Source: Hyphococcus sp. (GTDB lineage Bacteria; Pseudomonadota; Alphaproteobacteria; Caulobacterales; Parvularculaceae). From it: a stretch of 64,000 bases of DNA. How positions within the stretch are numbered: the stretch's first letter is position 1; every line of letters begins with the position of its first letter. Below the pieces are notes generated by a model. It was not told where the DNA came from, made no database searches, and worked only from the letters and a program-made list of their open reading frames with translations. The stretch is taken from contig JAJFGB010000007.1 of the NCBI GenBank assembly GCA_021776335.1, positions 124,001-188,000 of the forward strand, read 5' to 3'. Made by a program: the position numbers and the translations under genes. Of this stretch, positions 201 through 18,014 are shown piece by piece.

Positions 201-221
201 TGGTGCCCAGGAGAGGACTTG
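201..221. repeat. Distal attachment-site copy of the island
   Basis: This 21-bp stretch, beginning tggtgcccagga, is identical to the last 21 nt of the tRNA-Leu gene at 17994-18014 and lies in the same orientation. No tRNA body follows it: the next bases, gcgcctagcg, diverge at once. It therefore looks like the att copy left at the far end after integration. Sequence 1-200 to its left should be chromosome, or a neighbouring element. Confidence 0.85.
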
Positions 222-284
222 CGCCTAGCGAATAGCCTTTTGATGTCAATGCTCTAAAAAATTTCGAATCACAAGACGTACCGA

Positions 285-318
285 CAAAAATACCGCCGCC
301 GCGATTTTCAGGGGCGGT
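285..318 (-). terminator. Rho-independent terminator of the hsd operon
   Basis: Read on the minus strand, an ACCGCC arm (complement of 313-318) and a GGCGGT arm (complement of 292-297) flank a loop of about 15 nt. They are followed by ATTTTTGT. It lies about 70 bp past the last stop codon of the minus-strand restriction operon (387) and before the distal att copy, where an operon terminator is expected. The stem is short, so this is a moderate call. Confidence 0.5.
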
Positions 319-386
319 TTGGGTGCTGATGGATGCCTATGGACTGATTGGGATAGTATAGCGTCATTACGGGGGAGGGCACAAAT

Positions 387-1680
387 TCATTTTCGCCTAG
401 TTTTAATGGGAAACTCCGCTGCGCCGGGAGTCGAAGCGAATTGTGATTGAAGCTGCTTTTCGTCGCCTAGAAAGAATTCCCCGCCCTGGCTCTCAAAGCG
501 ATGTTTGAAATTCTCCTTTAGGTAGTCTTCCGCGTTTTTGGCAGAATCACCTTTCGCATAACTCGTTGACCTAAGCCATATTTCCCATCTGTGTTCGGCT
601 TTGGGGGGGGATGCCCGAATTGAGATCGAGGCAGCGGCGATTAACATCATTAGAATATCCGACTTTCACGAGCGCTTTTCGGATAACTGCATGTTTATCA
701 CGGCCAAGGAACGCAGCAACGTCTCCGTTGTATCGCATCATATAGAGCCAATGTTCCCCATCTTCGTAAACGCTTTTTCTACTTCCAAAACTGGGCGTAA
801 TGCCACTCGATGGTTGGAACACTTTCTCGAACCTAATCTCTTCTGTGTCTTGCTCCGCGACCGTTGGCTCGCCCCAGACATTCACTTCGGTGACTGGCAA
901 CTGTAGAATTGCAGTGACTTCATTGGGAGAAAGCTTTGCCTGTTCCCGTCCCATGAAGCGTGCCCGCTTAGGATCATAGGTCTCTGGCAATAGGTGATAA
1001 ACCTCAATGCGTCTTTCAATTCTCCACGCGCGTCGCACGGGGAGTGCGTGGGTCCATTTTTCTTCCCACCCTTTACTGACCTTTCGCTGTCGCCCCTCAT
1101 CGGAGCACTTGTCAACATCGCGAATGGTTTCCAGATCAATTTGCAAGAATCCAAGAAGCTGGCGCCTATTTAGGCTGTCAGTTTCGGGACTCTCTGCACC
1201 ATATATCAGGAATAGATCGCCAGCAGTTGCATTTTCGGCAAACCAGTTTCGCTCAGTTTCCTTAGTCCAGCCGATGTAGCCGTCTGTTGAGGGATCAAAA
1301 CCGTAAAATGCCCGGAGCCATATGCCTGGAACACGCTCTGTTGCTACGCTTGGCGCTGGTTTCCGACTTTCCCCCGCATCTTGGCTTTCGCTGTTTCGAA
1401 AGTCCGAATAAAATCCAGTAAGAGCACTACGTAAGTGCGCAAGGCCTTCGTATATATTTTCCGTATCGAAAACTATTTTCGAAGGATTCGGGCGATTCAA
1501 ACGTTTGTCGGCTTTCGTATACTCTAGATCGCGTAATATATGCTCGAAACCGTCACGATCGAAATGCTCGTCAAGGTCGCCGTAAGCACCTTCAATACGC
1601 CGTGCTTGAGATAATTGAGTCGATACAGTTTTTTGTTCAAAATTTGATCGCAACCAATTTTCGTACTTATCTTTCTGCAT
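387..1680 (-). pseudogene. T5orf172/MUG113 (GIY-YIG-like) nuclease, frameshifted in a C8 tract
   Basis: The 5' part (571-1680) encodes 369 aa. Residues 1-95 form the YxxWL...AYGDLDEH domain often found at the N-terminus of restriction-associated nucleases. Near residue 338 a KVGYSNDVNRRC motif begins a T5orf172/MUG113 domain, a GIY-YIG-like nuclease fold. The frame then breaks inside eight consecutive C (coding strand; 603-610). With one C fewer it would read SGIPPKAEHRWEIWLRS and run on to the stop at 387, giving about 430 aa and completing the domain. The gene lies 22 bp downstream of hsdR and is probably co-transcribed. The shift may be slipped-strand phase variation, true decay or a sequencing error; all three fit a homopolymer. 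Confidence 0.75.
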
Positions 1681-1702
1681 CGCTTAATCCTGTAGCTGAT
1701 TA

Positions 1703-4700
1703 TTAAGCCGAGATACCTCTTGGCGTATCTTCTTCGGATATTCCGACGCCCGCATTATTGTTTATGCGACGTACAAGCCTAACAATTTTTGCGCTTTCTT
1801 CGTCATCAAATAGGCCAGATAGGCCCTCATGATTGATATGTGTGAAAGGCGTATCGAACATTGCTTTAGGCTCCATCGTTCCATTCTTAACGAGATAATC
1901 GATCACTTGGTCAAGGAAAGTGATCTGATCTGGGTGCAATGGTGCTCCGGATAGAAATTCTGCAAAAGCTTCCTTTGCCGCCTTGCGACTTAAACCGACC
2001 GTAGACCGCACAAGCACTCCGAGCGGCTGCTCGCCATATGTGGTGATATACTCTTTGCGTGTAAGCGGTCCATCTTCCGAGAAAAGGATATCTTCCAATG
2101 CTTTCACGTCTGCGCGCGAAATCGGTTTGTTGTTTTTGAGGCGGCTAATAGTCAGATGATCTTTATGTTCATTGACAAAGCGCTGTACGCGTTTTCGGTA
2201 CTCCGCCATATTTGCATCCGTCTTGATTAACCGATGCTCAGTACTTGGCTCCCCAAGCTCATCTTCAAAATTTGTGAAAACGTCAGTGAAGCCAGGCTCT
2301 CTATCGACGAACTTGATTAACGCGCGAAGTTTAATTCGAACTTGTTCCAGCATCGGCAGGGTCACATTCTGCCACCAGCTATCCTCTTGAATTTCGATAA
2401 TGATCTCCAGCTGCGCGCTAACTGACGGTATGGCGGTTTTGTCTTCTAGGCCCGCAGCAAGTTTTTTGACCTTGGTAATATAACCTTCTTGAGTGCTGCT
2501 GTTTTTCAAAAGCGCAAGTTGTAGGTTGATGATCAATAGATCAAACCGTCGTGCAAATTCATCATCATCGTCGGGCGATGGCAAGCCACTAAGGTTTCGC
2601 TGCAATGTGTCAATGTGTTCCGGCTTCAAGTTGTCCCAGCTATTGCGATCTGCAAATGCTTCAACATCCTTTCGTTGTCGCCGCACGATGAAATTGTCGA
2701 TATTCATCGACGCAATGACGCTCTGGAGCTGGTCTTTAAGTTTGGTGCTAAAAGATTCTTCTTGTTCTGCTTCATCCAATGCAACCACAAGTTCTAGCCG
2801 TCGTTTGAATAGTTTTTGCTTAACCGACTCCTGTGCTTTCGACTCGTAGCCATCCGGATTCGCATCAAAAAATTCCATGTTTTGGCAGTAGTCGAAAACC
2901 AAAAACTCAGTCTTGTCTTCGCCTGGCAAAAACAAATCAGGGCAGAGGCGCGTGCCCCTACCAATCATCTGCCAGAATTTTGTTTTTGAGCGGACAATTT
3001 TGAAAAAGACTAGATTTACAACTTCAGGCACGTCGATACCTGTGTCCAACATATCAACAGATACCGCGATCTGTGGGTCCTTATCCTTGATGCTAAAATC
3101 GTCGATTAGGCTTTGCGCGTATTTAACAGAATAGTCGACTTTGCGGCAGAACTTGCCCGCGAGCGCTGGGTAGTTTTTATCAAACTGCTCTACAATGAAC
3201 TCTGCATGCTTTGAATTTTTTGCGAAGATGATTGTCTTGCCAATTTTGTCACCGCCTTCGATTTTGACGCCATTCTCCATCAAGTGGGCAATGACTTTGT
3301 TGACGGTGTCTTTGTTGAAAAGCCATTTGTTCAGTGCTGACGATCCGATTTCTTCAACGAGCTCACCGGTGTCTTTGTCATAGAACTCCTCTTGAAGCTC
3401 GTATTCCTCTTGTTCCTCGGCTGATAGATCATTGTATTTGATGCCATCACGCTGAAACTTTAGAGGAACAGAAATCGCGCGCGGAGGAACGAGAAACCCG
3501 TCCGCAACAGCTTGCTCCAACTCGTAGAAAAACGTTGGCTGATGGTTATCCAATTCAAACAGTTTGTATGTGTTTCTATCCACTTCGCCGCGCGGCGTTG
3601 CCGTTAGCCCAAGCAAGAGTGAATCGAAATAATCAAAAATCGCACCGAATTTCTGATAAACCGAACGGTGCGCCTCATCGATGATGATGAGATCAAAATG
3701 CCCGGAACTGAAGAGCTGTTTTTGATCCTTCTTTGTCCCGTCGATACAATTAAGCATCGTCGGGTAAGTCGAAAACAAAATCCGCGCATCTTCTTCTTTG
3801 TCATCAAGAAGGCTAGCAACGGTCACATTAGGTAGGAGCGATTTAAAATTGCGTTTGGCCTGATTAACGAGTGAGACGCGATCAGCGAGAAACAGAATCT
3901 TGCGCACCCAGCCGGCGCGCATCAGCATATCGACAATAGAGATTGCCAATCGGGTTTTGCCGGAGCCAGTCGCCATGACGATGAGGCTTTTGCGCTTGCG
4001 TTCGTCTCCATAAGCGCTCATCACCCGAGCCGCCGCTTCCATTTGATAATGGCGTCCGGCGATTTCAGGTTTCGGCTGGATAAGGTTTAAGTCTTTGTGA
4101 GAGCTGCGTTGGTTAATTTTCCATTGCAGCTCGTCCTGGGTCGAAAATCCTTGCACTTCACGAGGGGGGTAGACCTGATCATCCCACAGCCACGTTTTAT
4201 ATCCGTTGGAATAATAGATGACGGGGCGCTGTCCGAATTCCGCTTCCAGGCAATTGGCGTAAAGCTCTGCCTGGCGCTCACCTTGCTTCGGGCTAACGCG
4301 CGTTCGTTTTGCTTCAACTATTGCAACTGGCTTGCCGTCATTTCCCCACAAGACATAGTCAACATAACCGGTTCCTGTCAGTTCGCCCGAACTTGTCGGC
4401 ATGCCTGTGACTTCATATTCTTCGACATTCTCGCCCTTGGGGTTCCAGCCCCCCTCACGCAACATGACGTCAATCATCAGCTCGCGTGTTTGCGCTTCGT
4501 CATAATCGCCTTTGGGTATCGTTTTCTGATTTGTTTGCTTGACCTCTTGGATGGCGGCGAGCTCCGCCTTCAACTTCGCGAGCTCTTCCTCGGTTTGCGA
4601 TAGTTTTTCTTTCGCCTGAAAAGCTTCAGCGTCCATATCTCGAATGAGCTTGGCGATGTTGGCTTGCTTTTCTGCATCAGATTTTGGCAAGAGCGCAGGG

Positions 4701-5107
4701 TCAAATTTCGGTGGTGTTGCCCCGCCTTTTGTATAAACGCGAGCGATCCAACCTAAAAAACGATGTAGGGCGGCGGCGGTTTTTACACCTTCTTCAACAG
4801 AGATTTGCTTGTCGTCATGAGCCGCGACATTGCCAAGTTTGTGGATAAACCTAATATCGAATTTTAGGCCGCGTCCAAGGTTTTTTGTGAATGTGCCTTC
4901 ATAAAGCATCGCCGCCAGCGATTTCTGGTAAGGCGCACGCAATGAGCTGTCATTTTCATAAAGCCACTTCATAGAAATTTCGAGCGAGCGACGCGCGTAG
5001 ATCGCCGCTGCCCTAGGGTCGCTTTGCGCATATTTTTCGGCCATCAAAGCGTCAGGGGATAGAAAATCCCATAGGCCCGTCAGGAACGAAAAATTGCTTA
5101 TCGTCAT
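1703..5107 (-). CDS. hsdR: Type I restriction endonuclease subunit R (HsdR)
   Basis: This is the motor and nuclease subunit of a type I restriction complex; it cuts unmethylated DNA after ATP-driven translocation. The 1134-aa protein starts with a DUF4145-like region (1-125), then a coiled-coil stretch (145-190). A PD-(D/E)XK nuclease core follows (D250, E265-x-K267) and a superfamily 2 helicase with ATGSGKT at 379-385, DEAH at 477-480 and a later QMIGRGTRL motif VI. Length and order match the EcoEI-type R subunits. Its ATG overlaps the stop of the upstream DUF6602 gene (5104-5107), implying coupled translation. All key residues are present, so it should be active. Confidence 0.95.
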   Translation of the reverse strand: MTISNFSFLTGLWDFLSPDALMAEKYAQSDPRAAAIYARRSLEISMKWLYENDSSLRAPYQKSLAAMLYEGTFTKNLGRGLKFDIRFIHKLGNVAAHDDKQISVEEGVKTAAALHRFLGWIARVYTKGGATPPKFDPALLPKSDAEKQANIAKLIRDMDAEAFQAKEKLSQTEEELAKLKAELAAIQEVKQTNQKTIPKGDYDEAQTRELMIDVMLREGGWNPKGENVEEYEVTGMPTSSGELTGTGYVDYVLWGNDGKPVAIVEAKRTRVSPKQGERQAELYANCLEAEFGQRPVIYYSNGYKTWLWDDQVYPPREVQGFSTQDELQWKINQRSSHKDLNLIQPKPEIAGRHYQMEAAARVMSAYGDERKRKSLIVMATGSGKTRLAISIVDMLMRAGWVRKILFLADRVSLVNQAKRNFKSLLPNVTVASLLDDKEEDARILFSTYPTMLNCIDGTKKDQKQLFSSGHFDLIIIDEAHRSVYQKFGAIFDYFDSLLLGLTATPRGEVDRNTYKLFELDNHQPTFFYELEQAVADGFLVPPRAISVPLKFQRDGIKYNDLSAEEQEEYELQEEFYDKDTGELVEEIGSSALNKWLFNKDTVNKVIAHLMENGVKIEGGDKIGKTIIFAKNSKHAEFIVEQFDKNYPALAGKFCRKVDYSVKYAQSLIDDFSIKDKDPQIAVSVDMLDTGIDVPEVVNLVFFKIVRSKTKFWQMIGRGTRLCPDLFLPGEDKTEFLVFDYCQNMEFFDANPDGYESKAQESVKQKLFKRRLELVVALDEAEQEESFSTKLKDQLQSVIASMNIDNFIVRRQRKDVEAFADRNSWDNLKPEHIDTLQRNLSGLPSPDDDDEFARRFDLLIINLQLALLKNSSTQEGYITKVKKLAAGLEDKTAIPSVSAQLEIIIEIQEDSWWQNVTLPMLEQVRIKLRALIKFVDREPGFTDVFTNFEDELGEPSTEHRLIKTDANMAEYRKRVQRFVNEHKDHLTISRLKNNKPISRADVKALEDILFSEDGPLTRKEYITTYGEQPLGVLVRSTVGLSRKAAKEAFAEFLSGAPLHPDQITFLDQVIDYLVKNGTMEPKAMFDTPFTHINHEGLSGLFDDEESAKIVRLVRRINNNAGVGISEEDTPRGISA

Positions 5108-5778
5108 GCAGCAACCTGCGGATTTGCCACAGCGTTCATCTCGCGAAGGAAATACTTCATATACGGTGGATCAAGAAAAAGCCCATACCGACCATCGAGA
5201 TGTTTTTTTATGAAAAAGGTTTTCGAATATTCGTGCCCTTTGGATATCTCGGTATCTTCATCCAAGCAGAGAACAAAGTCGATTTCTTGATATTCGAGGT
5301 CGATTGAGCTGTCAGGTATAAATCCCTCGATGTCTGCATCGAAAACGTGCCCCATGCGCTTCAGGATCGTATCCTTACGATTATGCAACTTGTAACAAAC
5401 CACGCCACAAACTGCATTTGGGCAAATCGATTTAATTCTTTGCGCTTTCTGGTTGAATTCAGTGATCTCCGTTGCTTTGGCATTTGATTTAACCTCAATG
5501 ATCCCGGAGCAGTCTTGAGCGTTAATGCGAACTTGTCCGCCAAGTTCGGTATTAACGGTTCCACGTTTGCGAATTATGACATCGTTTTGGCCAAAATTAT
5601 CTGCAGGGCCTACAACCTCACCGGTATAAATTTTAATATCATCAATTCGATCACTGAGCACTTGCACGACGAAATTTTCACGGACAGCCCCGAGTACGCC
5701 CTTATGATCATGCCGGTCGGCGGCTCGCGACTGAAGTCTGAGGAGATCGTCAAGGTATGAGTACAGGTGATCACTCAT
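5104..5778 (-). CDS. DUF6602-like putative PD-(D/E)XK nuclease inside the hsd operon
   Basis: This 224-aa protein has a GQNDVIIRKRG strand followed by a SGIIEVKSNAKA strand (D84 and E113-x-K115). That is the D...ExK arrangement of PD-(D/E)XK nucleases, and the whole resembles the DUF6602 family. No signal peptide or membrane segment is seen, so it should act in the cytoplasm. It lies 8 bp after hsdS and overlaps hsdR by 4 bp, so it is a full member of the operon. I infer an accessory nuclease or DNA-recognition role in restriction; its real function is unknown. Family assignment is from motif memory only. Confidence 0.7.
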   Translation of the reverse strand: MSDHLYSYLDDLLRLQSRAADRHDHKGVLGAVRENFVVQVLSDRIDDIKIYTGEVVGPADNFGQNDVIIRKRGTVNTELGGQVRINAQDCSGIIEVKSNAKATEITEFNQKAQRIKSICPNAVCGVVCYKLHNRKDTILKRMGHVFDADIEGFIPDSSIDLEYQEIDFVLCLDEDTEISKGHEYSKTFFIKKHLDGRYGLFLDPPYMKYFLREMNAVANPQVAA

Positions 5779-5786
5779 TGTTTCTT

Positions 5787-6905
5787 CTACGCCGCCTCAT
5801 CTTTGGAGAAAAGCTCACCGCGAAAAGCAAGAATTGAGAGTGCCGAAGAAAGATCACGCTCGTGAGCCAGAGCAGACCGAAGGTGGTTCTTACTATTGAT
5901 TATTACGTTAGCTGCGGAGTCAAAGCTCAATTGCATCTCTACAGGAGGCAGTCGTACTGGCAGCTTTCTTAAATCAATTAGATGAAGGTGCTTAATAGAA
6001 TTTCCCTTCGTATTTCTTTGGTAAAAATACTTTGAACTGCCATGATTCAGGTAGTACAGGAGATAAAGTGGCAATACCTTGCCGCGCTCATATTTAATTA
6101 AGGCCGCACTTTCAAACAAGCTAAACTCAATATCACGATCTACCAAAGCGGCAGTACCGATTGACCCGCTTTTCGATAAGACAATATCTTCGAATGCTGG
6201 ATTGCACCGCCTTGTAAGGTCAAGATGTTCCTGCCGGGTAATAAACTTCGTGTCACTCCAATTCAAACCATCTACTCTAATATTTTTTGCTGATAAGAAC
6301 TTGATTCCTTCATCAACGTATTTGGGTGTCTTATGAGTTCCATCAGTTATTTTCGTGCATATACTGGAAAGCGCCACACTATCCCATCCCTTAGGGTTGA
6401 TCACAGGGTCACCAAACATATCGAGGAAGACGGAACGCAGGAGGTCGTCTGTGAGGGCGATTGCTTTTTCGCGTTTGCGGCGCAAGGCGTCCGCTTTGTC
6501 CAATATCGCCGCAATCTGCTTTTGTTCGTCCAATGGCGGTAAGGGAAATTCAGCATCAGTAAGCATTCCAAGCTTTATATATTTGATCACCCCGCCAATG
6601 CTGAGCTCACGTAAGCGATCAACATATTTCGACATCCAGTGATAAAGATAACGAACATTCAGCACCTCACTCAACTTAACGGTTATTACATAGGTGCGTT
6701 GGTACGCATTAAATTTTCCTTGATAATGTTTGACATTCAAATCTCCATTTCCAGCGACGAGTATTGCGTCTGCATCGAAGGCATATTTGTCAATTTGCAA
6801 TGTATTGCGGGCGCATGTAAAAAATGGATATGCGCCGTCAATCGCTGCGGCATTGGCATCAAGTTTGCCCGTTTTTATTTCAACGTAATCCCCAAGCTTC
6901 GTCAT
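5787..6905 (-). CDS. hsdS: Type I restriction-modification specificity subunit S (HsdS)
   Basis: HsdS chooses the DNA target for both methylation and cleavage. The 372-aa protein has two target-recognition domains of about 100-120 aa. They are separated by a conserved helix ending PLPPLDEQKQIAAILDKADA, and a matching segment (RLPPVEMQLSFDSAA) lies near the C-terminus. The ATG at 6905 shares one base with the hsdM stop (TGATG), so translation is probably coupled; the codon just before it is a TTG and unlikely to be used. Only one hsdS is present and no inverted repeats that would allow shuffling are seen. The recognition sequence cannot be read from the protein by eye. Confidence 0.93.
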   Translation of the reverse strand: MTKLGDYVEIKTGKLDANAAAIDGAYPFFTCARNTLQIDKYAFDADAILVAGNGDLNVKHYQGKFNAYQRTYVITVKLSEVLNVRYLYHWMSKYVDRLRELSIGGVIKYIKLGMLTDAEFPLPPLDEQKQIAAILDKADALRRKREKAIALTDDLLRSVFLDMFGDPVINPKGWDSVALSSICTKITDGTHKTPKYVDEGIKFLSAKNIRVDGLNWSDTKFITRQEHLDLTRRCNPAFEDIVLSKSGSIGTAALVDRDIEFSLFESAALIKYERGKVLPLYLLYYLNHGSSKYFYQRNTKGNSIKHLHLIDLRKLPVRLPPVEMQLSFDSAANVIINSKNHLRSALAHERDLSSALSILAFRGELFSKDEAA

Positions 6906-8368
6906 CAAAGTATTCCCCGCAGTTCTTTGAGGTCAGCCTGTATCTCAGCTTCCAGTTTGTCTAACTGATCAAGAATGACCTTTGGGGGATCATACTCGGC
7001 TTCGTCATACTCAACTTCTTTGTACTGATTGATGGAGAGGTCATATTTGTTAGCCGCAATATCTTCTTTTGCAACGGCAAAGGCCTTGGCCGCCTTGTCG
7101 GCAAAATCACCTTTGCCATTTTTGAATGATTTATATTGCGCAAGGATATCGGGGATGTCGTTTGCTTTAATCTCATCACGCTTATCATCAAGGCTATAGC
7201 CATCATCCTGCATATCATAGAAAAAGACATTGTCAGTGCCCCCGCTATCGGTGCGGGTGAAAATCAACACCGCTGTTGAAACACCGGCATAAGGCTTAAA
7301 CACACCTGACGGCATGGAAATGACGGCTTCGAGCTTTTGTTTTTCGACCAGCGTCTCACGAATATCCCTATGCGCTTTTGATGAGCCAAACAGCACGCCA
7401 TCAGGCACAATTGCCGCGCACCGTCCGCCCGGTTTCAATTGCTTCAGGAACAGACTGATAAAGAGAAGCTCGGTCTTTTTTGTCTTCGCGACTTGCAGCA
7501 AATCCTTCGCCGTCGCGTCATAGTCGAGCGAACCCTTAAATGGAGGGTTGGCGAGAATGAGCGTATAAGCATTGCGGTGATCCGCATGATCTTCACTTAA
7601 GGAGTCGCGCCCTTCAATTGCCGGGTTATCAATTCCATGGAGAGTCATGTTCATTGCACCGATGCGCAACATGGAATTATCAAAGTCAGATCCGTGAAAC
7701 ATATCCTGATGAAAATGTTTCTTTAGTTTTTTGTCGACCAGGATATCGGGGTAATGATCTTCCAGATACTCCGCTGCCGCTACGAGAAAACCACAGGTGC
7801 CGCATGCTGGGTCACAAATGATATCCTTCGGCGTTGGTTCGGTGAGTTCCACCATCATTTTGATGATATGTCGCGGCGTCCTGAATTGTCCGTTTTGGCC
7901 TGCTGTCGCAATCTTTGACAGCATGTATTCATAAAGATCGCCTTTCGTGTCCCGGTCTTTCATTGGGATCGCATCAATCATATTGACGACCTTATCGAGC
8001 AGGGCGGGCGTCGGGATGATGAAAACGGCGTCGGCCATGAAACGTGTGTAAGAGCTACCAGCCGTGCCGTTCATCTCCTTGATGAAGGGGAAGACCTCGT
8101 CTTTGAACACACGAAATTTTTCTTCAGGGTCGTAATCTTTAAATCGTGACCATCTAAGTTGCTGCTGGCCCTGCCGGAAAATGGGGTTCTCGATTTTTCC
8201 GCCCAACAGGCTGGCCTGTTTTTCACGGGCCGTGTGGATGTCGTCGATGCGTTTGGCAAAGAGGAGATAGGTGATCTGCTCAATAACAGAGAGCGGATTG
8301 GATACGCCCCCGGACCAGAAAGCATTCCAGAGCTGATCGACTTTATTTTTGAGTTCCCCAGTTATCAT
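6905..8368 (-). CDS. hsdM: Type I restriction-modification DNA methyltransferase subunit M (HsdM)
   Basis: This N6-adenine methyltransferase subunit protects host DNA and forms the M2S core with HsdS. The 487-aa protein has an N-terminal helical HsdM domain (about 1-130), the AdoMet motif DPACGTCGF at 186-194 and the catalytic NPPF at 274-277, in the usual order. I place the start at the ATG at 8368 (MITGELKNKV), which is preceded by GGGAA. A GTG ten codons upstream has no better ribosome site. It is the first gene of the minus-strand operon hsdM-hsdS-DUF6602-hsdR-T5orf172 nuclease. Its upstream region contains phased repeats that may control it. Confidence 0.94.
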   Translation of the reverse strand: MITGELKNKVDQLWNAFWSGGVSNPLSVIEQITYLLFAKRIDDIHTAREKQASLLGGKIENPIFRQGQQQLRWSRFKDYDPEEKFRVFKDEVFPFIKEMNGTAGSSYTRFMADAVFIIPTPALLDKVVNMIDAIPMKDRDTKGDLYEYMLSKIATAGQNGQFRTPRHIIKMMVELTEPTPKDIICDPACGTCGFLVAAAEYLEDHYPDILVDKKLKKHFHQDMFHGSDFDNSMLRIGAMNMTLHGIDNPAIEGRDSLSEDHADHRNAYTLILANPPFKGSLDYDATAKDLLQVAKTKKTELLFISLFLKQLKPGGRCAAIVPDGVLFGSSKAHRDIRETLVEKQKLEAVISMPSGVFKPYAGVSTAVLIFTRTDSGGTDNVFFYDMQDDGYSLDDKRDEIKANDIPDILAQYKSFKNGKGDFADKAAKAFAVAKEDIAANKYDLSINQYKEVEYDEAEYDPPKVILDQLDKLEAEIQADLKELRGIL

Positions 8369-9633: not shown

Positions 9634-10767
9634 ATGGCGCGAGCCAGTCTACATGCCAAGGGCCTGCTTTTCGGAGGGCGAGATGAAGCGACGCCAGATG
9701 GGCCTCTTCCTATGATGGACCCGCTGGCTCCATTGCTTGAGCGTCTCTCTTGGAAATATGTCAAGTCCGATCCTGATTGGCCGCCCAATGTCATTCCGGC
9801 CGATGACGATATCGCCAAGTGGAAGGAGGAGATCGCCCACTGGGCAGGCCGCGTCTGGTGCCATGTCAATGAAATGCCCGAGGGGCCGGAGCTTCGCGCG
9901 TTTGATATAATGTCGCTGAAAGAGCAGTGTCGCGAATATCTCGAACACGAGGGCCCCATGCTATCTAAACGTGGATTGTCAATCGAAGAAATCTGGTGTT
10001 CATCCCAACTTCACGAAGCAGCACCCCTAATGCTACTGCTTAATACGCGCCACGCAGAAGCTGCTACGGAACGTGTGAACATCAAGCTTCTCTACAATGC
10101 CGACGCACTTGTCTGGTTGCTCGGAGCTATGTGCCTTCAAATGGAACTCGAAAGCCCCGGGATCAATGTGCTGGTGACAAACGGCAAGTCTGGTCACGCA
10201 ATCCAAATCTCAGGTATGAACGGCCTCGACTTTAAGCATCCGCGCGGCGTTGACGTGCGACCCGGCTGGTTCTCTTTGCATGACCCTTGGCCGGCCAAGT
10301 CATTATTGTCGCCAAGGCACGGTTATCCGATACAGGTGCTTGAGGACATCACACGTCCCCCCCTTTGGCTGGTGTCACCGCCGGACCTAGGAGAGATTAT
10401 TGTTGGCTTTATCATTCCGGTCGATGCTCTCCAAACGCTAGCCTGCTGGTTTAAGTCGTTGGACGCGATGATGCGACTGCAAAGCGAGTATGGAACGCCG
10501 CTTTGGCACGAGAATCCCGTCGACCGGGAGGCTTTGTTCCCGCTCATGCTTTCGATGACCGGCGGAACGACCGCCAGTAGTTTGGCTGGTTATCTAGGGC
10601 TAGGTCGCTATCACCTGATGACGGAAGACGTCGACTCGGCGCTGTCCAGTTTCGAGTGTGCTGTTGGTATCGACCGACCACGCGCCGTATCTGTCGCTGC
10701 TATTATGCTCAAAGAGTTCGGACACGGTGACCTGGTTAAACGGTGGGCCGTTGACTATAATGACTGA
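9634..10767 (+). CDS. Unrecognised island protein with a papain-like His...Asp signature
   Basis: I do not recognise this 377-aa protein. The start is fixed by a perfect AGGAGG six bases before the ATG at 9634. The middle has SGHAIQISGM (H188) followed by FSLHDPWP (D217), a pairing seen around the catalytic His and Asp/Asn of C39/C70-type papain-like proteases. The nucleophilic Cys is not obvious; C122, in IWCSSQLHEA, is the nearest candidate. No signal peptide or transmembrane helix is seen. The C-terminal 60 residues are helical and could be a TPR-like repeat. It is followed after 96 bp by another unknown gene on the same strand. Confidence 0.75.
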   Translation: MARASLHAKGLLFGGRDEATPDGPLPMMDPLAPLLERLSWKYVKSDPDWPPNVIPADDDIAKWKEEIAHWAGRVWCHVNEMPEGPELRAFDIMSLKEQCREYLEHEGPMLSKRGLSIEEIWCSSQLHEAAPLMLLLNTRHAEAATERVNIKLLYNADALVWLLGAMCLQMELESPGINVLVTNGKSGHAIQISGMNGLDFKHPRGVDVRPGWFSLHDPWPAKSLLSPRHGYPIQVLEDITRPPLWLVSPPDLGEIIVGFIIPVDALQTLACWFKSLDAMMRLQSEYGTPLWHENPVDREALFPLMLSMTGGTTASSLAGYLGLGRYHLMTEDVDSALSSFECAVGIDRPRAVSVAAIMLKEFGHGDLVKRWAVDYND

Positions 10768-10863
10768 TCGTTCGCATCCGCACACCCGCCCCTGGGCGGC
10801 TGCCGTCGAAGGTGCGTTGCAAAGCTAGTCGCTATGGGGCTTGCTATTGCCCCGGGGAACGTC

Positions 10864-11883
10864 ATGGGTTGGTTAGGAAGTTTGCTGGCCCGGGTCTCGG
10901 GCGAAATCGCGGAAGAGCTGACATTTATCGAAGGCTTATCCGCCAGTGAGAGCGGCAATTCGGTTCAGCTCGCTCCGGACAAGTGCTACTTAGAGCTTTA
11001 CGTGGAGTCACTCCGCATCGAGAAAGCTCGTGCATTCGCGACTCGGTTTCATGGAGTGGTTTACAGCTATGTGACGTTCGCTCGTTTGGGCGACAGCAGC
11101 TCGGTGGTCGCTGCGGTTACAAAACCCAGTAAACTAGCAGATCTTGATTCGGGTTCCGTCGGCAAAGTCATAACCATATCCCGTAAGATGATGGGAGCCG
11201 TGCCATGGCGCGGCGGAAACCTCGCTGTCGAGCTTGGCCTTTTCTCTGTTAAATCTGGTAGTCTGTTGTCGCCGCTGACAAACTTGATAACGCGCATTTC
11301 GGACGTTGCAGGGATCAGCTTCGTCGAACTAGCAAGGCCTTTCATTCCACTCCTTACGGAAGGCATGGATCTCATCGCTGGCCAGACGGCTGACGTACGC
11401 CTTGAAGTTGGAGTCGATTCAACTTTTGAACTCAACAAGCCTGTCACCTGCGCAATCATTGCGGCTCCGCGGGATTCGTTCGATCGTAGCGCACTTTCGC
11501 TAGACCCTGTTGACCGCAAGCTTCTTCACAAGGGAGAACCGCTGCAGGCGGGATATTGCGTATTCTCGATCCGAACTACGGATCGCAAGGCTGACTTTGG
11601 GGAAATTCCGGCATTGAAGGAGGCATTCGCCGCGTTTCGGAAATCAGTGTTGGAGGGACAGCCCGCGCTAGCGCGTGAAGCTCTCGCCGCCTTCCGGCGC
11701 GCGGTGTTGCTTTCGCCAGACCTTATCGCGGAGGACGCAAAGCGCCTTGCGAGCCTAGCAGAAAATATGATGTCCGAGGCCTTCGCGCCGACGGGGATTA
11801 CGTTTGGGGGCGACGAATCGCAGCGTGCCCCCACCGTCTCGCTCCCCATGAACCTCTCCGACTTGGGCCTCTACAATCCGTAA
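10864..11883 (+). CDS. Unrecognised 339-aa island protein
   Basis: No family recognised. The ATG at 10864 has GGGGAA nine bases upstream and is preferred to one ten codons earlier. The first 220 residues alternate short strands and helices, with SRKMMGAVPWRGG near residue 112 and a LTEGMDLIAGQTADVRLEV segment near 175. A SLDPVDRKLLHKGEPL segment follows (about residue 220) and the C-terminus is a long alanine-rich helix. There is no signal peptide. Position and strand suggest an operon with the 9634 gene, and both converge on the peptidase/lipoprotein pair. A partner role is plausible but unproven. Confidence 0.7.
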   Translation: MGWLGSLLARVSGEIAEELTFIEGLSASESGNSVQLAPDKCYLELYVESLRIEKARAFATRFHGVVYSYVTFARLGDSSSVVAAVTKPSKLADLDSGSVGKVITISRKMMGAVPWRGGNLAVELGLFSVKSGSLLSPLTNLITRISDVAGISFVELARPFIPLLTEGMDLIAGQTADVRLEVGVDSTFELNKPVTCAIIAAPRDSFDRSALSLDPVDRKLLHKGEPLQAGYCVFSIRTTDRKADFGEIPALKEAFAAFRKSVLEGQPALAREALAAFRRAVLLSPDLIAEDAKRLASLAENMMSEAFAPTGITFGGDESQRAPTVSLPMNLSDLGLYNP

Positions 11884-11889
11884 CTCGAT

Positions 11890-12036
11890 ATGCCGTCCAA
11901 GAAACACCGGCAATTCAAAACGCCTGGCGCGCCAAATTTAAATCTCTCCTTCTTTGATCTGAGGCCGCCTACGACAGAAAAGTCCGGCAAAGGAAACCGC
12001 GGCGACAACGCGAACAATACTGAGTGCCGTGCATGA
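11890..12036 (+). CDS. Possible small protein (48 aa) at the end of the plus-strand pair
   Basis: An ATG 6 bp after the stop of the 10864 gene opens a 48-codon frame ending in TGA at 12036. The product starts MPSKKHRQFKTPGAPNL and is basic at the N-terminus, with FFDLRPPTTEKSGKG in the middle. The tight spacing suggests translational coupling, but no clear ribosome site is seen and the coding signal is weak. I do not recognise it; it may be chance. Confidence 0.3.
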   Translation: MPSKKHRQFKTPGAPNLNLSFFDLRPPTTEKSGKGNRGDNANNTECRA

Positions 12037-12207
12037 GCCACCAAACCAATCGGGTATAGCAACCGGTTCTTGTTCGTCATTTTGCATCGTCGATCTTGTC
12101 TCGATCTGGCGGCAATGACACCAAAGAGTCTTTGCCCAACGTCATGAAGCATCTATCCGGTTGCCGACGGCGAGTCTGATATGTAAATAGAATACTCGGG
12201 CGACAAT

Positions 12208-13488
12208 CTATGAGAAGTCTCCATCGCGAATCCATTCCCAATCATACACGGTCCAAAAATCGCGAGCGAGACCGTGTTCGATATACGCCAACGGCAAATA
12301 TCCGTATCCTTCAACGCCCCAATCTAGCCCCCATGAATTGCGAATAACCAAAGACGGCACGACTTCGCCGTCCACCTCGTGATTCAAATCATAACCAACC
12401 GCGACGACCGCATGACCGCCGCTCACAGAATCAAATTCTGGGTCGGGGAAACGTATGTCGGGCTCATCGGTCAGAGAGTCAAAAACCGTAAAGCCAAACG
12501 CAAGGCAGAATCCGCTCTCCAGGGTTCGCAAGACGCGGTCAATGACTTCATCCGTTGAAATGTCGGGCGTGTCGATGCGCGCATAGTTTAACACTTGGTA
12601 GTTGGATGCATAAGAGTATAGGAAAGCGGTCGGTTCGTCTTCAAAGACGTCAACATCATAGGGCCAATGTTCTTCCGGCGGAATGCCGAACGTTACGGCC
12701 GCTTTCATGGCGGTGCGAACATAAGCGCCTGTATCACCGGTCCAGCCATGGAGGTTTCGAGTGACTTTGTAGAGGAACAGCCGCGACCCATCGATATACT
12801 GGCCGCGCCCGCGACGCATCATATATTCCATTAGACCGACGACCGCCTGCGCTGTGCAGGAGCCGAGTTGGCCCTGATCCTCGATTGGTGAGCAATAGTC
12901 AATATTCAGGTGAGAATCTGATATGGGCGCGTTTGTCACAAGCGGCGACATTTTATCGCGCAAGACTCGCAGCAGGTTTTCATCACGCTTGTTTCGCACG
13001 TGATCGCAACTGTCACAGGCATCGCTCGCGAATGGCGGCAAAACGCGATCGCGATAATCTGGAAGGTCAGGATGCCACCCAAGAGTTACAACGCGCCCGC
13101 TCCGATAATTCCTCGGCATGCCAAGCGCGCTCAGTCTTGATGTCAATTTCTGCCCGCGCCGGCCTACAGAAACTGCTGCGCTCATACGCCAGCTCTCGTC
13201 GTCTTGGCGCCAATCCTCATCGTCGCTCCGCCACTTGTCTCGACGGCGCCGTATTCTTCTTTGGCGTCGACGTGATGCCATTAGCGCCGCCTCTCGCCAT
13301 CCTGGGTTCTTATGCCAATCTCTCTCGCACAAGGGCGAGTCTTCATCATCAGGCGCGGCGCCGTCCTTAATCATAAAATGTGTTGTGAGCAGATCGATGC
13401 CGCCAGACGGCTGTGTATCTTTTGATTGCTCGTCTGAATCGGATTTCTTGTCATTCGGCGGACGATTATCTTTGTTCTTCTTGGCCAT
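12208..13488 (-). CDS. C1-family (papain-like) cysteine peptidase
   Basis: A 426-aa papain-family peptidase. Catalytic residues are complete: Q205 of the oxyanion hole, C211 in QGQLGSCTAQA, H359 in SGGHAVVAVGYD and N384 in IRNSWGLDWG. A GWHPDLPDYRDR motif (137-147) precedes the core, as in other bacterial C1 peptidases. The first 100 residues are highly charged, with a lysine/aspartate-rich start and an RRRQRRIRRRRDKWR stretch near 75-87. No signal peptide is seen, so it is probably cytoplasmic, or exported by a non-Sec route. It lies 71 bp downstream of the lipoprotein gene on the same strand. Target proteins are unknown. Confidence 0.9.
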   Translation of the reverse strand: MAKKNKDNRPPNDKKSDSDEQSKDTQPSGGIDLLTTHFMIKDGAAPDDEDSPLCERDWHKNPGWREAALMASRRRQRRIRRRRDKWRSDDEDWRQDDESWRMSAAVSVGRRGQKLTSRLSALGMPRNYRSGRVVTLGWHPDLPDYRDRVLPPFASDACDSCDHVRNKRDENLLRVLRDKMSPLVTNAPISDSHLNIDYCSPIEDQGQLGSCTAQAVVGLMEYMMRRGRGQYIDGSRLFLYKVTRNLHGWTGDTGAYVRTAMKAAVTFGIPPEEHWPYDVDVFEDEPTAFLYSYASNYQVLNYARIDTPDISTDEVIDRVLRTLESGFCLAFGFTVFDSLTDEPDIRFPDPEFDSVSGGHAVVAVGYDLNHEVDGEVVPSLVIRNSWGLDWGVEGYGYLPLAYIEHGLARDFWTVYDWEWIRDGDFS

Positions 13489-13559
13489 GGCAGCGCTCTC
13501 CCGTTAAATTCAGCTTTCCGCAGGCTTGAGGCTCTGTCAGCACGTCAAATCAGCAGGAC

Positions 13560-15431
13560 CTACGGAGCAGGCTTGTCGTCCTTCCAAGCTTTTATCCTGG
13601 TGAGTAGATTTTCGGCTTTCGGCACAAAAACCGTGAACCGGGACTCGTTCTCCTTGTATTTCTTTTCAGCGATTTCCGCGTCAAGCGCGTTCGCCTGGAT
13701 CTCCGCCTGAGCCTTTCGGTGCTCAAGCGTCCCGCCGGTTGCGTTTGTGAGTTTGGTCATCAGCCGGACATGAGTGTTCTCAATCACCTCTAACTTTGGC
13801 CTTTCAGCAGCGGCAAAAGCTGGATCGGTGTCGGTCTTGATTTTTGCGCCTTCGGCAATCAAGGCGTCATACTCTTTTTTGAGCGCTTCGCCGGCTACAC
13901 GGTATTCGCGTTGCTTGGGTTTTTCACCAGTCGCCGGTGCTGGATCCACTGTGAAGGCGCCGCTTGTCAGCTTTTGCTTTGCAGTGTCAAACGCCGTTCT
14001 CTCTAGCGCAGCGCTGTCATAGACAATCGTTGGCAATGGCTGTGACTGCGGCGACGGCGGTTGTTGCGCACGAAATTGAGCAAAATTCCCAGCAACTGTG
14101 GATGGGTCGCCCGTCCGCAACGCTTCGGCTGCCGCAAGACACGTCTTTTTCTCATTTTTCTCAGTGGCGCTATCGAACTTTTGACACTTATCAATCAGGG
14201 CGTTGTATTGCTTAAAGACTTCAACACTTGCCGCTGCTTTGCGCGCTATAACATCCGCACGATCCACCTCCAGCTGGTAGCCCTTAAGCGAAAGCGCTTT
14301 TTCCTGCGCGAGCGCCAATACATGCGTAAGATTTTTGCGGCAATAGTCTGCAAGTCCCGAAACTCGCGTCAATTGAGTCGAAATAGCCAGCCCGCGTGCG
14401 TCGTCTGGGTCGGCAAAATCTTGCCTCTTAACATAGTTGTTGACGACCGCTTCATGGAAGCGCTCATCAAGTGCGCTGCTTAGGTTAACGTTCGCCATCT
14501 CAACAGCACAAGCGTCAATGACCGCGTCAAGCGGGTCGCGATCTAAAAACGCCGACTGCATTTTTCGAATCTCGATTGCGACATCGGCGCTTACAGACGA
14601 TGTGATGCTCCCGGCCGCCGTCACTGTCGTAAACTCGCCCTCGGCCTCCGTCGCCGTTTTGATTTCGCCTTTCAACAACTCGCGCATGGTCCTATGCTCC
14701 GCTTCGGCTTTCGTGACCTCCCCTTGCAGGACCGTCACTTTTTCTGCGTCGCGTTGATCATCAGGCTTTGCATTTTCTTCCGCAAGCTTCGCTTTTGCTT
14801 CGAAAACTTTTGCTTCAGCCTCGGCAAGTTTGCTGCTTGCTTCCCCAATATCTTCGATAGCGCTCGCAAATCCGGTAAGGGAAGCCTCTGCGCTGCTCGA
14901 CGCTTTTGAGCCGAGAGCCGCCAGCGATCGGCCGAAGCGGCCTGCGGCATTCTCGCCGAGATTGGTGGTTACCAGTTCGCGCCCGATGCCATTCATTAGC
15001 AACGTATAGCTCGTGCCGGTGATCGCGCCGTTTGAATAGGCTTCACAGGCCCGGAACATTCTCTCGCGCAGAAGCTGGATCGATGCAGTGCGTTCAGCCA
15101 GTTGCGCAATCCCCTCAATAGTTTCGCCGGAGATCGAACCCGATCCCTTCCCAAGAACGCTGATCGCCGCGCCAAAAGAGTTTGCAACGGCAGCGGCTAC
15201 ATCAGGACTTGGCTCCGTGCAAACAATGCGAGAGGGCGTCACCAACCCGGGGCGGGTCATCAGATTGGGATCGTGATTTAGAATTACGCGCTGCCGAGCG
15301 CCAGTCGTTATCGATTTGCCGCCGCCATATTTATTCTTGTGGAGATCAAATTGGTTGAAGATTTCGCCGGGGGCGGTTGAGCACGCGCTAAGCAGAACAA
15401 ACAATATCGCTGCCCGGGCAATTTTCAACAT
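13560..15431 (-). CDS. Large alanine-rich lipoprotein with coiled coil, function unknown
   Basis: A 623-aa protein starting MLKIARAAILFVLLSAC, a signal peptide with lipobox LSAC (C17), so it should be anchored in an envelope membrane facing the periplasm. The ATG at 15431 has GGGGGATCC just upstream; the codons before it lack a signal-peptide n-region. A heptad-rich coiled coil rich in A/E/K lies around residues 195-260, and a proline-rich linker (QQPPSPQSQPLP) near 480. I do not recognise a domain. It precedes the C1 peptidase gene and may be co-transcribed with it. If so, peptidase and lipoprotein could work together, though their predicted compartments differ. Confidence 0.8.
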   Translation of the reverse strand: MLKIARAAILFVLLSACSTAPGEIFNQFDLHKNKYGGGKSITTGARQRVILNHDPNLMTRPGLVTPSRIVCTEPSPDVAAAVANSFGAAISVLGKGSGSISGETIEGIAQLAERTASIQLLRERMFRACEAYSNGAITGTSYTLLMNGIGRELVTTNLGENAAGRFGRSLAALGSKASSSAEASLTGFASAIEDIGEASSKLAEAEAKVFEAKAKLAEENAKPDDQRDAEKVTVLQGEVTKAEAEHRTMRELLKGEIKTATEAEGEFTTVTAAGSITSSVSADVAIEIRKMQSAFLDRDPLDAVIDACAVEMANVNLSSALDERFHEAVVNNYVKRQDFADPDDARGLAISTQLTRVSGLADYCRKNLTHVLALAQEKALSLKGYQLEVDRADVIARKAAASVEVFKQYNALIDKCQKFDSATEKNEKKTCLAAAEALRTGDPSTVAGNFAQFRAQQPPSPQSQPLPTIVYDSAALERTAFDTAKQKLTSGAFTVDPAPATGEKPKQREYRVAGEALKKEYDALIAEGAKIKTDTDPAFAAAERPKLEVIENTHVRLMTKLTNATGGTLEHRKAQAEIQANALDAEIAEKKYKENESRFTVFVPKAENLLTRIKAWKDDKPAP

Positions 15432-15731
15432 TGGATCCCCCAATAGATAGATCACGAACCCATTTATTGTTTATCTTTGTTGTAGTAATGTCTAGAGCGA
15501 CTTCAATACTATTATTTATTGAAAGCGACAGGGCGAATTTTCCAGCACTTTCAACTGTTTGCTGGGAAATAGGATAACTGCGCACTGCTCTCTGTCGTTT
15601 TGCGACCGTGAAACCGGTAGTTCATGTTGGATCTTCGTTCGGGTGTGCTCCATTGCAGTCATCTTGTGAGCATTGCCGAAAGTCGGTTTTTGGCGAGAAA
15701 TGTCCAGATTAGATGTGGACCTAAGTTAAGG
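15432..15731. other. 300-bp gene-free stretch upstream of the lipoprotein gene
   Basis: It probably carries the promoter of the lipoprotein/peptidase pair. I see no convincing gene, RNA or long palindrome in it. Confidence 0.4.
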
Positions 15732-16433
15732 TCACTCAGCTTTAGATTCCTTGATTATTGTTTTCAATGCTTTCGAAATTGCACCCCAGCCGCGTTTTGT
15801 GAACCGCTCTGCGAGAGTATCGGCTGAGGGGCATTCTATACCTTGAACTTCAAAGCGTTCAGCAACTATTGCCGCTGCATCGTCGATCGATGTTCCGGAA
15901 ATGTTGAGACCAAGAATCTGATTCATCGCGTTGCTTTCTGTTTTCAGTTTGCGACTTTCTTTTATGATCGGTTGTGTGCCTTGGCCGCGTTTTGCCTTGA
16001 GCAACTTTGCAAGGTCTTCTTCCTCGCTTGAGGTTAGATAATTTGCGAACGCATCATACAGCCAATCGAGCACCCAGCGCGGCGGATACAAACCCAAATG
16101 ATGCGCCGTTACGAAAGCCTCCATTGCATATAGCGGGTTGTCTTTCGTCGCTTCGTATATGCCTCTGAACAACTGGTTTTGCGTATTGCTCAGTAAGATT
16201 GACATAAATACCGCATCTTCTTCGTGTTGTTCTTGTGAACTGTCCAATTGCCTCTTTTGAAAATCTTTGAACCAGCCTTCTAACTCAGACTCAGTTATAC
16301 ATGGATCAAATTTTGAGAGCTCCTCTTCAGAAATCTCACAACTAGGTGGTTGCTCAACGCCAACGATGCGCGCCATGCGAGAGCGTTGACTCCGCCTAAT
16401 TGCTTTCTTCGGCGTGTCGCGTTTTTTGTTCAT
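15732..16433 (-). CDS. Hypothetical protein beside the integrase
   Basis: A 233-aa protein I do not recognise. The ATG at 16433 (MNKKRDTPKKAIRRSQRS) lies 16 bp past the integrase stop, so the two may share a transcript; a start 15 codons earlier would overlap the integrase. The N-terminus is strongly basic, followed by an acidic helical region and a segment (AMEAFVTAHHLGLYPPRWVLDWL, about 104-126) where hydrophobic residues and Pro-Pro-Arg-Trp stand out. No signal peptide is seen. Proteins with a similar HHxGLYPPxWVLDWL stretch occur near phage-type integrases, so it may be an island accessory; the function is unknown. Confidence 0.7.
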   Translation of the reverse strand: MNKKRDTPKKAIRRSQRSRMARIVGVEQPPSCEISEEELSKFDPCITESELEGWFKDFQKRQLDSSQEQHEEDAVFMSILLSNTQNQLFRGIYEATKDNPLYAMEAFVTAHHLGLYPPRWVLDWLYDAFANYLTSSEEEDLAKLLKAKRGQGTQPIIKESRKLKTESNAMNQILGLNISGTSIDDAAAIVAERFEVQGIECPSADTLAERFTKRGWGAISKALKTIIKESKAE

Positions 16434-16449
16434 GTCAATCACAAGTAAC

Positions 16450-17649
16450 TTATCGTGGGGTTTGCCGCCACAACTCATCCAGATAATCCGCCCAAACCTG
16501 CATCATCTTCACCCGCTCATCCCAATATTCGGCGGCGTGAGTGTAAGCGCGGCGAACCGTATTTGCTTCCTGGTGTGCGAGTTGTCTTTCGATCGCGTCA
16601 GGCGACCATTTACCCATTTCATTGAGGCGCGTCGCGGCCATAGACCGGAAACCGTGTGCAGTCATTTCATCCCCAGAATATCCTAATCGCCTCAGCGCGC
16701 CTGTCATGGTATTGTCTGACATTGCGCGATGGGAATTGTTGACGGCGGGAAAAAGCAAAGGGCCTTTTCCGGTTAGCCGTTGCAGATCGCTTAAGATATC
16801 GAGCGTTTGTTTTGCGAGCGGTACGCGGTGCGGGCGGCGCATTTTCATTTTCTTTGCGGGGATTTCCCAAACCGCCGCCTTTAAATCGAACTCTTCCCAT
16901 TCGGCGTGGCGCAACTCGCCAGGACGCACGAAGGTACGCGCCAAAAACTGTAACGCGAGCTTTGTTGTCAGATGTCCCGTGAAGCCATCAATCGCACGGA
17001 GGAGGGCGCCGATTTCTTTCGGGTCGACGATCGCGGCGTGATGTTTGACCTTTGGTGTGGTAATGGCGCCGCGTAGATCAGCTGTTGGGTCGCGTTCAGC
17101 GCGACCGGTTGCTATTGCCAGTCGAAAGACTTGACCAACTTTACTACACAACCGTCGCGCCGTTTCATATTTGCCGCGTGCTTCAACGGATTTCAGCGCA
17201 ACTAAAATTTCAGGCGCGGTGATCTCAGCGATGGGCAGATCGCCAAAATAGGGATAAGCGAATTCAAAAATCCACTTCGTTTTCTCGATCGTTACTTCAG
17301 CGCGTTCTTCGCGGGCCATTTTGGCTATGAGTTCTTCGGCCACAAAGCGAAAGGTATTTTCGGCGCTTGCTGCTCCGGCTAGTTTTTCAATTTTTCTGAC
17401 ATGGCCGGGGTCGTTTCCACCGGCCATTTGACGTTTTGCGGCGCCGCGTTTTTCGCGTGCATCTTTCAGCGATACGCCCGGATAGACGCCAAGCGCGAGC
17501 GTTTTCCGTTTGCTGTGAAATCGGTAATCCATACGCCAGTATCGTTTACCGTCCGGCTTGACGAGCAGATACATGCCAGCGCCGTCGGCAAGCTTGTAGG
17601 CTTTGCTGCGCGGTTTTGCGGTACGCACCGCGATGTCAGACAATTTCAT
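16450..17649 (-). CDS. P4-type tyrosine-recombinase integrase
   Basis: This site-specific recombinase would insert and excise the island at tRNA-Leu. The 399-aa length is usual for the P4 family. It has the N-terminal DUF4102-like arm-binding domain (MKLSDIAVRTAKP...), a core-binding domain (about 95-190) and a catalytic domain with R242 (VRPGELR), H332-x-x-R335, H359 and the nucleophile Y369 (RRAYTHAAEY). The ATG at 17649 is preferred because it gives the canonical P4 start and has AGAGAGG upstream. An in-frame extension of 67 codons is not expected in the family. It lies 344 bp from the tRNA att copy, reading away from it. Confidence 0.95.
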   Translation of the reverse strand: MKLSDIAVRTAKPRSKAYKLADGAGMYLLVKPDGKRYWRMDYRFHSKRKTLALGVYPGVSLKDAREKRGAAKRQMAGGNDPGHVRKIEKLAGAASAENTFRFVAEELIAKMAREERAEVTIEKTKWIFEFAYPYFGDLPIAEITAPEILVALKSVEARGKYETARRLCSKVGQVFRLAIATGRAERDPTADLRGAITTPKVKHHAAIVDPKEIGALLRAIDGFTGHLTTKLALQFLARTFVRPGELRHAEWEEFDLKAAVWEIPAKKMKMRRPHRVPLAKQTLDILSDLQRLTGKGPLLFPAVNNSHRAMSDNTMTGALRRLGYSGDEMTAHGFRSMAATRLNEMGKWSPDAIERQLAHQEANTVRRAYTHAAEYWDERVKMMQVWADYLDELWRQTPR

Positions 17650-17993
17650 CGATTTCGCCTCTCTAAAGGAGCGGCGCAAGTCTCGCGCCGCCGCCATTGT
17701 CGGTATCGCCTGACGGTATCCGCCGGGCGGGTGTTCAAAGTGAGCGGCGGTTTCAGTCCAAATGCAGAAATCGAGAAATCCGATCACCGATTTCAACGAC
17801 TTAAGGCGCGCTGTCGGTACCTTGCGTGTTTTTCGTCGGTACAATTTCATCCGATGCCAATTATGCCGACAAAACTACCGACATTTTGACGGTATGCGCG
17901 TGGATGTGCATGAACGCGTCTGGAATACCTTTCTATCAACTCACTGATTTCATGGTATTTTTAGACGACTATCGATGTCAATGGATGGTCACT

Positions 17994-18014
17994 TGGTGCC
18001 CAGGAGAGGACTTG
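17994..18014. repeat. tRNA-proximal attachment-site copy
   Basis: The last 21 nt of the tRNA-Leu gene (including the encoded CCA) are repeated exactly at 201-221. The core thus covers the acceptor 3' strand and part of the T-arm, a common target for tyrosine integrases, and leaves the tRNA intact. Confidence 0.85.

Follow-up and report, generated by a model that had tools for sequence, protein, structure and literature searches.

What lies between two copies of a tRNA 3' end in a Hyphococcus sp. genome, and did it arrive there as one block? The question concerns positions 201–18014 of a 64,000-nucleotide stretch of contig JAJFGB010000007.1 (assembly GCA_021776335.1, forward-strand positions 124,001–188,000), referred to hereafter as the window. 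An earlier note had described a complete tRNA-Leu island in which an integrase, an excisionase-like gene, a restriction locus and genes of no assigned function had arrived together. Our analysis indicates that the region is very probably a 17,793-bp integrative genomic island at tRNA-Leu(CAG), built from a conserved frame and two interchangeable cargo slots. Genomes, contigs and loci are designated below by G, C and L numbers, G000 being the genome of the window.

The island is bounded by a repeat of its tRNA target

Both borders carry TGGTGCCCAGGAGAGGACTTG, a 21-bp exact direct repeat. A tRNA-Leu(CAG) gene was called by ARAGORN at the right border, and the right copy of the repeat is the 3' end of this gene, CCA included. 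This puts the island 3' of a tRNA-Leu(CAG) gene that remains intact. Its length is given from repeat to repeat, the span 201–18014 including both copies. There were no further copies of TGGTGCCCAGGAGAGGACTTG in the window at up to three mismatches (mean of 100 shuffles, 0.00), and no additional copy at this tolerance in the 40 kb to the left of the window. An internal second attachment site was considered and rejected, the best match within the island having six mismatches. The marks of a tRNA island are present: both borders carry the tRNA 3' end as a direct repeat, a site-specific recombinase gene adjoins the tRNA, and the site is empty or differently occupied in relatives. The borders and the frame comprise the following features, for which G037, a genome of the same genus, and G017, the closest relative, provide homologues.

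201–221, plus strand: left attachment-site copy (attL-type), exact 21-bp repeat (repeat search).
222–362, plus strand: conserved inner left end, holding ACCGACAAAAATACCG at 280–295; homologues at left ends of G037 (one) and G017 (two).
9062–9280, minus strand: excisionase-like HTH_17 gene, likely start ATG near 9256 (Pfam, PHROGs, relatives).
15732–16478, minus strand: gene for a protein of 248 amino acids (aa) adjoining the integrase, function not assigned; also beside the integrase in G037.
16450–17850, minus strand: tyrosine-recombinase integrase open reading frame (ORF), start probably near 17652, giving 400 aa (Pfam).
17865–17880, plus strand: candidate arm site between integrase and tRNA, with two mismatches to ACCGACAAAAATACCG (16-mer search).
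17994–18014, plus strand: right attachment-site copy (attR-type), inside the tRNA gene (repeat search).
17994–18080, minus strand: tRNA-Leu(CAG), intact target gene (ARAGORN).

At about 63931–64000 the right edge of the window cuts off another tRNA-Leu-like sequence, which is on the minus strand (74% identity).

The integrase ORF has the arm-binding, central and catalytic domains of the tyrosine recombinase type in Pfam and is transcribed away from tRNA-Leu. Its nearest relatives align only from about residue 61–69, which places the probable start well inside the ORF. In named genomes 57 loci with integrase relatives were found; three short partial matches were excluded and 54 were examined by script. 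A tRNA or tmRNA gene lay 150–450 bp upstream on the same strand in 43 of these (13 tRNA-Leu, 12 tmRNA and 18 other tRNAs). Within the genus and order, integrase relatives were found 3' of tRNA-Leu(CAG) in G037 (71%), G009 (55%), G038 (55%), G006 (49%) and G029 (46%); at the same tRNA, G017 has what by eye is an unrelated integrase-type gene. Among tRNA-targeting elements, which make up a large family, this one is unremarkable.

The HTH gene matched phrog_66, 'excisionase and transcriptional regulator' (E 5.1e-4), and has relatives in G037 and at a tRNA-Leu locus of Erythrobacter (L062); the G037 gene exceeds the Pfam cutoff for HTH_17 (31.6 bits, E 2e-7). The product of the 248-aa gene is 64% identical to its counterpart in G037, likewise beside the integrase. 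This is the sole relative found, the search of 385 class genomes having returned only the genome of the window. The 16-mer ACCGACAAAAATACCG occurs exactly in the left end and with two mismatches to the right of the integrase, that is, inside both ends of the island, and is invariant across the four left ends compared (the window, one in G037 and two in G017). These sites are candidate integrase arm sites. Two more sites with three mismatches, at 16198 and 31732, look like chance, 0.43 matches being expected. A short inverted repeat seen by eye (ccgcc ... ggcgg, about 289–318) adjoins the left arm-like site and is also present in the aligned homologous left ends.

A mechanism consistent with this layout can be proposed. 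The tyrosine recombinase would join a circular form of the element to the 3' end of tRNA-Leu(CAG) within the 21-bp identity, and integration would leave the tRNA whole, with the core duplicated at the other end of the element. The HTH_17 excisionase-like protein would probably turn the reaction towards excision, and the arm-like sites inside both ends may serve the integrase. The conserved frame consists of the left end, the integrase and the HTH and 248-aa genes. Of the two cargo slots, the one next to the left end holds a type I restriction-modification locus with the DUF6602 and 369-aa genes, and the one between the HTH and 248-aa genes holds two orphan genes together with genes for a papain-type peptidase and a lipoprotein. 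We infer both the order in which the cargo was acquired and a defensive role for it.

A homologous island in G037 carries different cargo

Positions 1–18000 of the window were compared at the DNA level with 28 genus genomes (own included) at E 1e-6, and nine of these gave a match of any kind. The cargo had no DNA match in the other 27. Nor did the whole island match plasmid DNA. In G037, matches were found to 15778–17620 (integrase and 248-aa gene, 69%), 9088–9350 (HTH_17 gene, 73%) and 201–354 (left end, 77%). Their order at the tRNA-Leu of G037 is that of the window, and the element to which they belong measures about 16.7 kb. The left end of that element lies about 400 bp from sequence matching the DNA to the left of the window (L021) up to position 4650, in a GAF and histidine-kinase gene. 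Between the 248-aa and HTH genes G037 carries SNF2/helicase, DUF4391, N6_N4 methylase and ResIII/RE_endonuc genes (L115:7517–16757, C5), a restriction cluster that is type III-like. The window has 9589–15455 in the equivalent slot, and the type I restriction locus fills the slot from the HTH gene to the left end. The two islands thus have their frame in common (left end, integrase, HTH_17 and 248-aa genes) and differ in their cargo.

The left end is also represented in G017, where it is 75–79% identical to that of the window; core identity between the two genomes is 79%. G017 contig C31 (L043:11361–13480) holds two tandem left ends of the island type with an NTP-transferase/HEPN protein (Pfam) between them. 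These are best read as the remains of two insertions.

Base composition differs between modules. The G+C content was 0.470 for 387–8398, 0.480 for 8399–9588, 0.545 for 9589–15455 and 0.513 for 15732–17850, as compared with 0.545 in the part of the window that lies right of the tRNA, and 0.527 in the left flank. Such a mosaic fits modules of different origin and argues against one block arriving together. The claim that the genes had arrived together therefore gives way to exchange of modules, to which both the G037 frame with its different cargo and the steps in G+C point, two islands having been compared.

The outer repeats of the island are exact in the window; their counterparts in G037 and G017 lack one or more bases. 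G005 (L032:1–54, C221) is 100% identical to the right end over 54 bp, 47 of them outside the tRNA, and its contig ends there; the SDR gene near the right end is 72% identical between G005 and the window. This difference suggests recent transfer. In G033, 58 bp similar to the right end (86%) lie on a contig other than that of its tRNA matches. Judged by these comparisons, recent movement of the island is likely.

The tRNA-Leu site is an insertion hotspot

In G004 an acyl-CoA ligase-like ORF (by eye) ends 7 bp from the tRNA on a single contig, an empty site. The counterpart of this flank in the genome of the window is at about G000:C8 106,832, some 17 kb to the left of the window. Since the tRNA of G004 is joined to sequence this far to the left, the full insertion in the window genome is about 35 kb. 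Distances from the tRNA to the conserved flank, obtained by subtraction of match coordinates, were 9 bp in G004, 13.2 kb in G031, 17.1 kb in G037, 17.8 kb in G014, 23.5 kb in G009, 26.2 kb in G034, about 33 kb in the genome of the window (to the kinase gene) and 42.8 kb in G038. The site could thus be measured in eight of the 28 genus genomes, one empty and seven with 13–43 kb (own included); in the others the tRNA and the flank were on different contigs or one of them was not found. The tRNA-Leu site is an insertion hotspot.

The insertion in the window genome has two layers, the 17.8-kb island and a left layer with an RND pump, a MoxR/DUF58 block and LuxR, LuxI and MucR genes (L021, Pfam). 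The last three (L021:16992–19948, corresponding to G000:C8:120992–123948) abut the left end of the island. G017 has the pump, LuxR/LuxI and MucR beside the same flank, and its two island-type left ends adjoin the MucR gene. Since this arrangement recurs, among the relatives searched, in G017 only, the left flank is probably itself a later layer.

The restriction cargo

The slot next to the left end contains the following genes.

387–650, minus strand: short ORF that may continue the 571–1680 gene in another frame (by eye; no Pfam match).
571–1680, minus strand: 369-aa gene downstream of hsdR, C-terminus GIY-YIG-like by eye.
1703–5107, minus strand: hsdR, type I restriction subunit, 1134 aa (Pfam, PADLOC).
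5104–5778, minus strand: DUF6602 protein between hsdS and hsdR, PD-(D/E)xK-like (Pfam, PADLOC).
5787–6908, minus strand: hsdS specificity subunit with two specificity domains (Pfam, PADLOC).
6905–8398, minus strand: hsdM methyltransferase (Pfam, PADLOC).

The three type I subunit genes carry their diagnostic domains and matched the PADLOC type I models (hsdM, E 2.9e-190; hsdS, E 2.6e-66; hsdR, E 7.1e-172). The DUF6602 gene matched PADLOC PD_DExK (E 1.5e-10), and a literature search turned up no papers on DUF6602. The 369-aa gene had no match in Pfam, NCBIfam, PADLOC or PHROGs. To the eye only, it looks frameshifted near 571–650, with the GIY-YIG-like end continuing in 387–650; the two pieces searched apart in Pfam and NCBIfam gave nothing.

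The peptidase cargo and an unnamed 349-aa family

The peptidase cargo at 9.6–15.5 kb, with its unnamed partner family, is the least ordinary content of the island.

9589–10767, plus strand: 392-aa orphan gene on the same strand as 10834–11883 (ORF).
10834–11883, plus strand: 349-aa gene of an unnamed family; several loci of its relatives adjoin peptidases.
12208–13488, minus strand: papain-type (C1) cysteine peptidase (Pfam; alignment to PDB 3ois).
13560–15455, minus strand: 631-aa putative lipoprotein (lipobox by eye) with relatives on plasmids.

The C1 peptidase gene is convergent with the 349-aa gene. Its Cys, His and Asn positions, which we take to be catalytic, are kept in the alignment to PDB 3ois. 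C1 peptidase matches were present in 18 of 150 order genomes (own included) and in no other drawn genome of the genus. A related C1 peptidase on pSymA of Sinorhizobium medicae (L127:2714–6927) adjoins a LanM lanthipeptide synthetase. The 392-aa protein had no match in Pfam, NCBIfam, PADLOC, PHROGs, plasmid proteins or viral contigs. We do not claim a peptidase link for the 631-aa lipoprotein family; annotated neighbourhoods show a peptidase near a relative in Nitrosospira only, where it is of the trypsin family (Pfam 1.7e-20).

The 349-aa family had no match in Pfam, NCBIfam, PADLOC or PHROGs. Scans of viral contigs with its first alignment (A1) and with the 631-aa protein gave no relatives, a five-member alignment (A2) found nothing below E 0.5 in PDB, and a search of plasmid proteins with the 349-aa protein gave no match. 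The motif VP[YW]RGGN is present in three of the five aligned members. Relatives were found in G518, the only other match in 385 class genomes, in G678 among 398 phylum genomes and in G921 among 274 genomes; a weak, stop-filled match in G784 was dropped. Others are on plasmids of Sporomusa, Pseudanabaena, Prosthecochloris and Rhizobium (the last weak, best E 3e-5).

A profile-verified neighbour with a peptidase fold was present in four of the eight loci of the family (own included): C1 peptidases here and in Sporomusa, a C14 caspase in Pseudanabaena (Pfam 1.1e-17), where the locus sits in a MoxR/SAV_2336 cluster, and a CHAT protein in Rhizobium (1.3e-18). Two of these four are not independent, the window island being the starting point and Sporomusa having been found through the C1 peptidase search. 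Two further loci have neighbours at the level of motifs only, GDSG in G518 and a possible His/Cys pair in G678, the latter also adjoining an nSTAND1 NTPase; those in Prosthecochloris and G921 have no peptidase neighbour. Among the six loci found by the 349-aa family itself, the counts were two verified, two at motif level and two without a peptidase, and stand without a matched control. A CHAT identity for the G678 neighbour was not accepted (no Pfam, NCBIfam or PDB match; E 0.28 in BLASTP to a CHAT protein), nor was a trypsin identity for the G518 neighbour (GDSG by eye; no Pfam, NCBIfam or significant PDB match). Taken by its gene neighbourhoods, the 349-aa family could be a peptidase partner gene of the conflict-system type.

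Weighing of alternative explanations

Several observations weigh against an island of frame and slots. The two-slot model rests on two islands, that of the window and that of G037. The earlier note had called for relatives with an empty site: G004 is empty, yet the exact junction with the window's own left flank (200 joined to 18015) was absent from the other 27 genus genomes searched, and among relatives searched only G017 has this left flank beside the same flank genes. In six genus genomes (G003, G010, G011, G012, G032 and G035) the SDR gene is next to the flank genes and no tRNA match separates the two, so that the tRNA gene does not hold this place throughout the genus. Eleven of the 54 integrase relatives have no tRNA or tmRNA within 500 bp upstream. 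The G+C check proposed at the outset separates the restriction module from the core but not the second cargo, the value of which equals that of the core. The excisionase-like gene is borne out by its G037 relative and less well by the window gene itself, whose HTH_17 match is weak (E 5.7e-5, 23.7 bits, under the Pfam cutoff of 27). Finally, no transfer or replication gene was recognized in the island. By contrast, the bounding of the region by both attachment sites at tRNA-Leu(CAG), and the presence in it of an integrase and a restriction locus, held in full.

Alternatively, the region would be a composite or a relic: an old left end retained from the ancestor shared with G017, an integrase end belonging to a later insertion, and no movement of 201–17993 as a unit. 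The left end is about as similar to that of G017 as the core is, the same MucR gene adjoins it there, and the G+C steps between modules agree with such a history. A composite should be set against the absence of an internal core copy, the exactness of the outer repeats as compared with the eroded ones of G037 and G017, and G037, in which left end and integrase end stand as one unit at the same tRNA; we consider it rather unlikely. A defective prophage or P4-like satellite in place of a cargo island is very improbable. The integrase does match phrog_1 and the excisionase-like gene a phage family, but among eight proteins compared with PHROGs (a scan that left out hsdR, hsdS, hsdM and the C1 peptidase) these two alone fell into a named integration or excision family. 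No primase, capsid or packaging gene appeared in Pfam scans, and the primase or replication and capsid-size genes of a P4-like satellite were found in neither the Pfam nor the PHROGs scans. The integrative island of frame and exchangeable cargo accommodates these observations best.

What the second slot does is a separate matter. The 9.6–15.5 kb cargo may, tentatively, be an undescribed peptidase-based anti-phage or conflict module, in which the 349-aa partner is combined with interchangeable peptidases; the island would then carry the module from species to species, in one of its two exchangeable slots for defence. The peptidases would be papain-type (here and in Sporomusa), caspase (Pseudanabaena), CHAT (Rhizobium) and perhaps trypsin-like (G518). 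There is about an even chance that the peptidase cargo is instead unrelated to defence, and that what the island picked up is a module for housekeeping or peptide maturation. Its genes lack PADLOC and NCBIfam matches, the Sinorhizobium medicae relative adjoins a lanthipeptide synthetase, and two of the eight partner-family loci have no adjoining peptidase. A role in conflict is favoured by the caspase in its MoxR/SAV_2336 cluster, the CHAT protein and the nSTAND1 NTPase that adjoin the partner family elsewhere, comparable contexts being described as conflict systems in passages of PMC7159879.

Comparison with known systems

The islands of G000 and G037 have a conserved mobile frame at one tRNA gene and exchanged cargo of restriction type, and with such a pair the exchange of modules can be tested directly. 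The unnamed 349-aa family, found next to peptidases of several types, is a concrete candidate new component of bacterial peptidase-based immunity. With the P4-type-integrase tRNA islands the element shares an integrase adjoining and pointing from the tRNA, a repeat of the tRNA 3' end, an excisionase-like gene and variable cargo. It differs in that the scaffold is seen in two related genomes, includes a conserved 248-aa gene and has no recognized transfer genes. The restriction locus has hsdM, hsdS and hsdR in an operon-like run with strong PADLOC matches, as is usual for type I systems, but has two additional genes, one for a DUF6602 protein between hsdS and hsdR and one of 369 aa after hsdR. 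Defence islands and hotspots of E. coli (PMC10121019) and Pseudomonas (PMC12629846) are likewise reported to combine a conserved site, an integrase and exchanged restriction or other modules; they are from other bacteria, and the second slot here is a peptidase cluster with no database name. In conflict systems, passages of PMC7159879 describe partner genes that co-occur with peptidases. The island has a C1 peptidase, its partner family stands beside peptidases elsewhere, and the partner relatives occur in caspase, STAND or MoxR contexts as in those passages. It differs from the systems described there in its papain-type peptidase, in a partner family outside Pfam, NCBIfam, PADLOC and PHROGs, and in having no adjoining NTPase and no named effector. 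We conclude that the island is ordinary in kind and that its payload is unusual.

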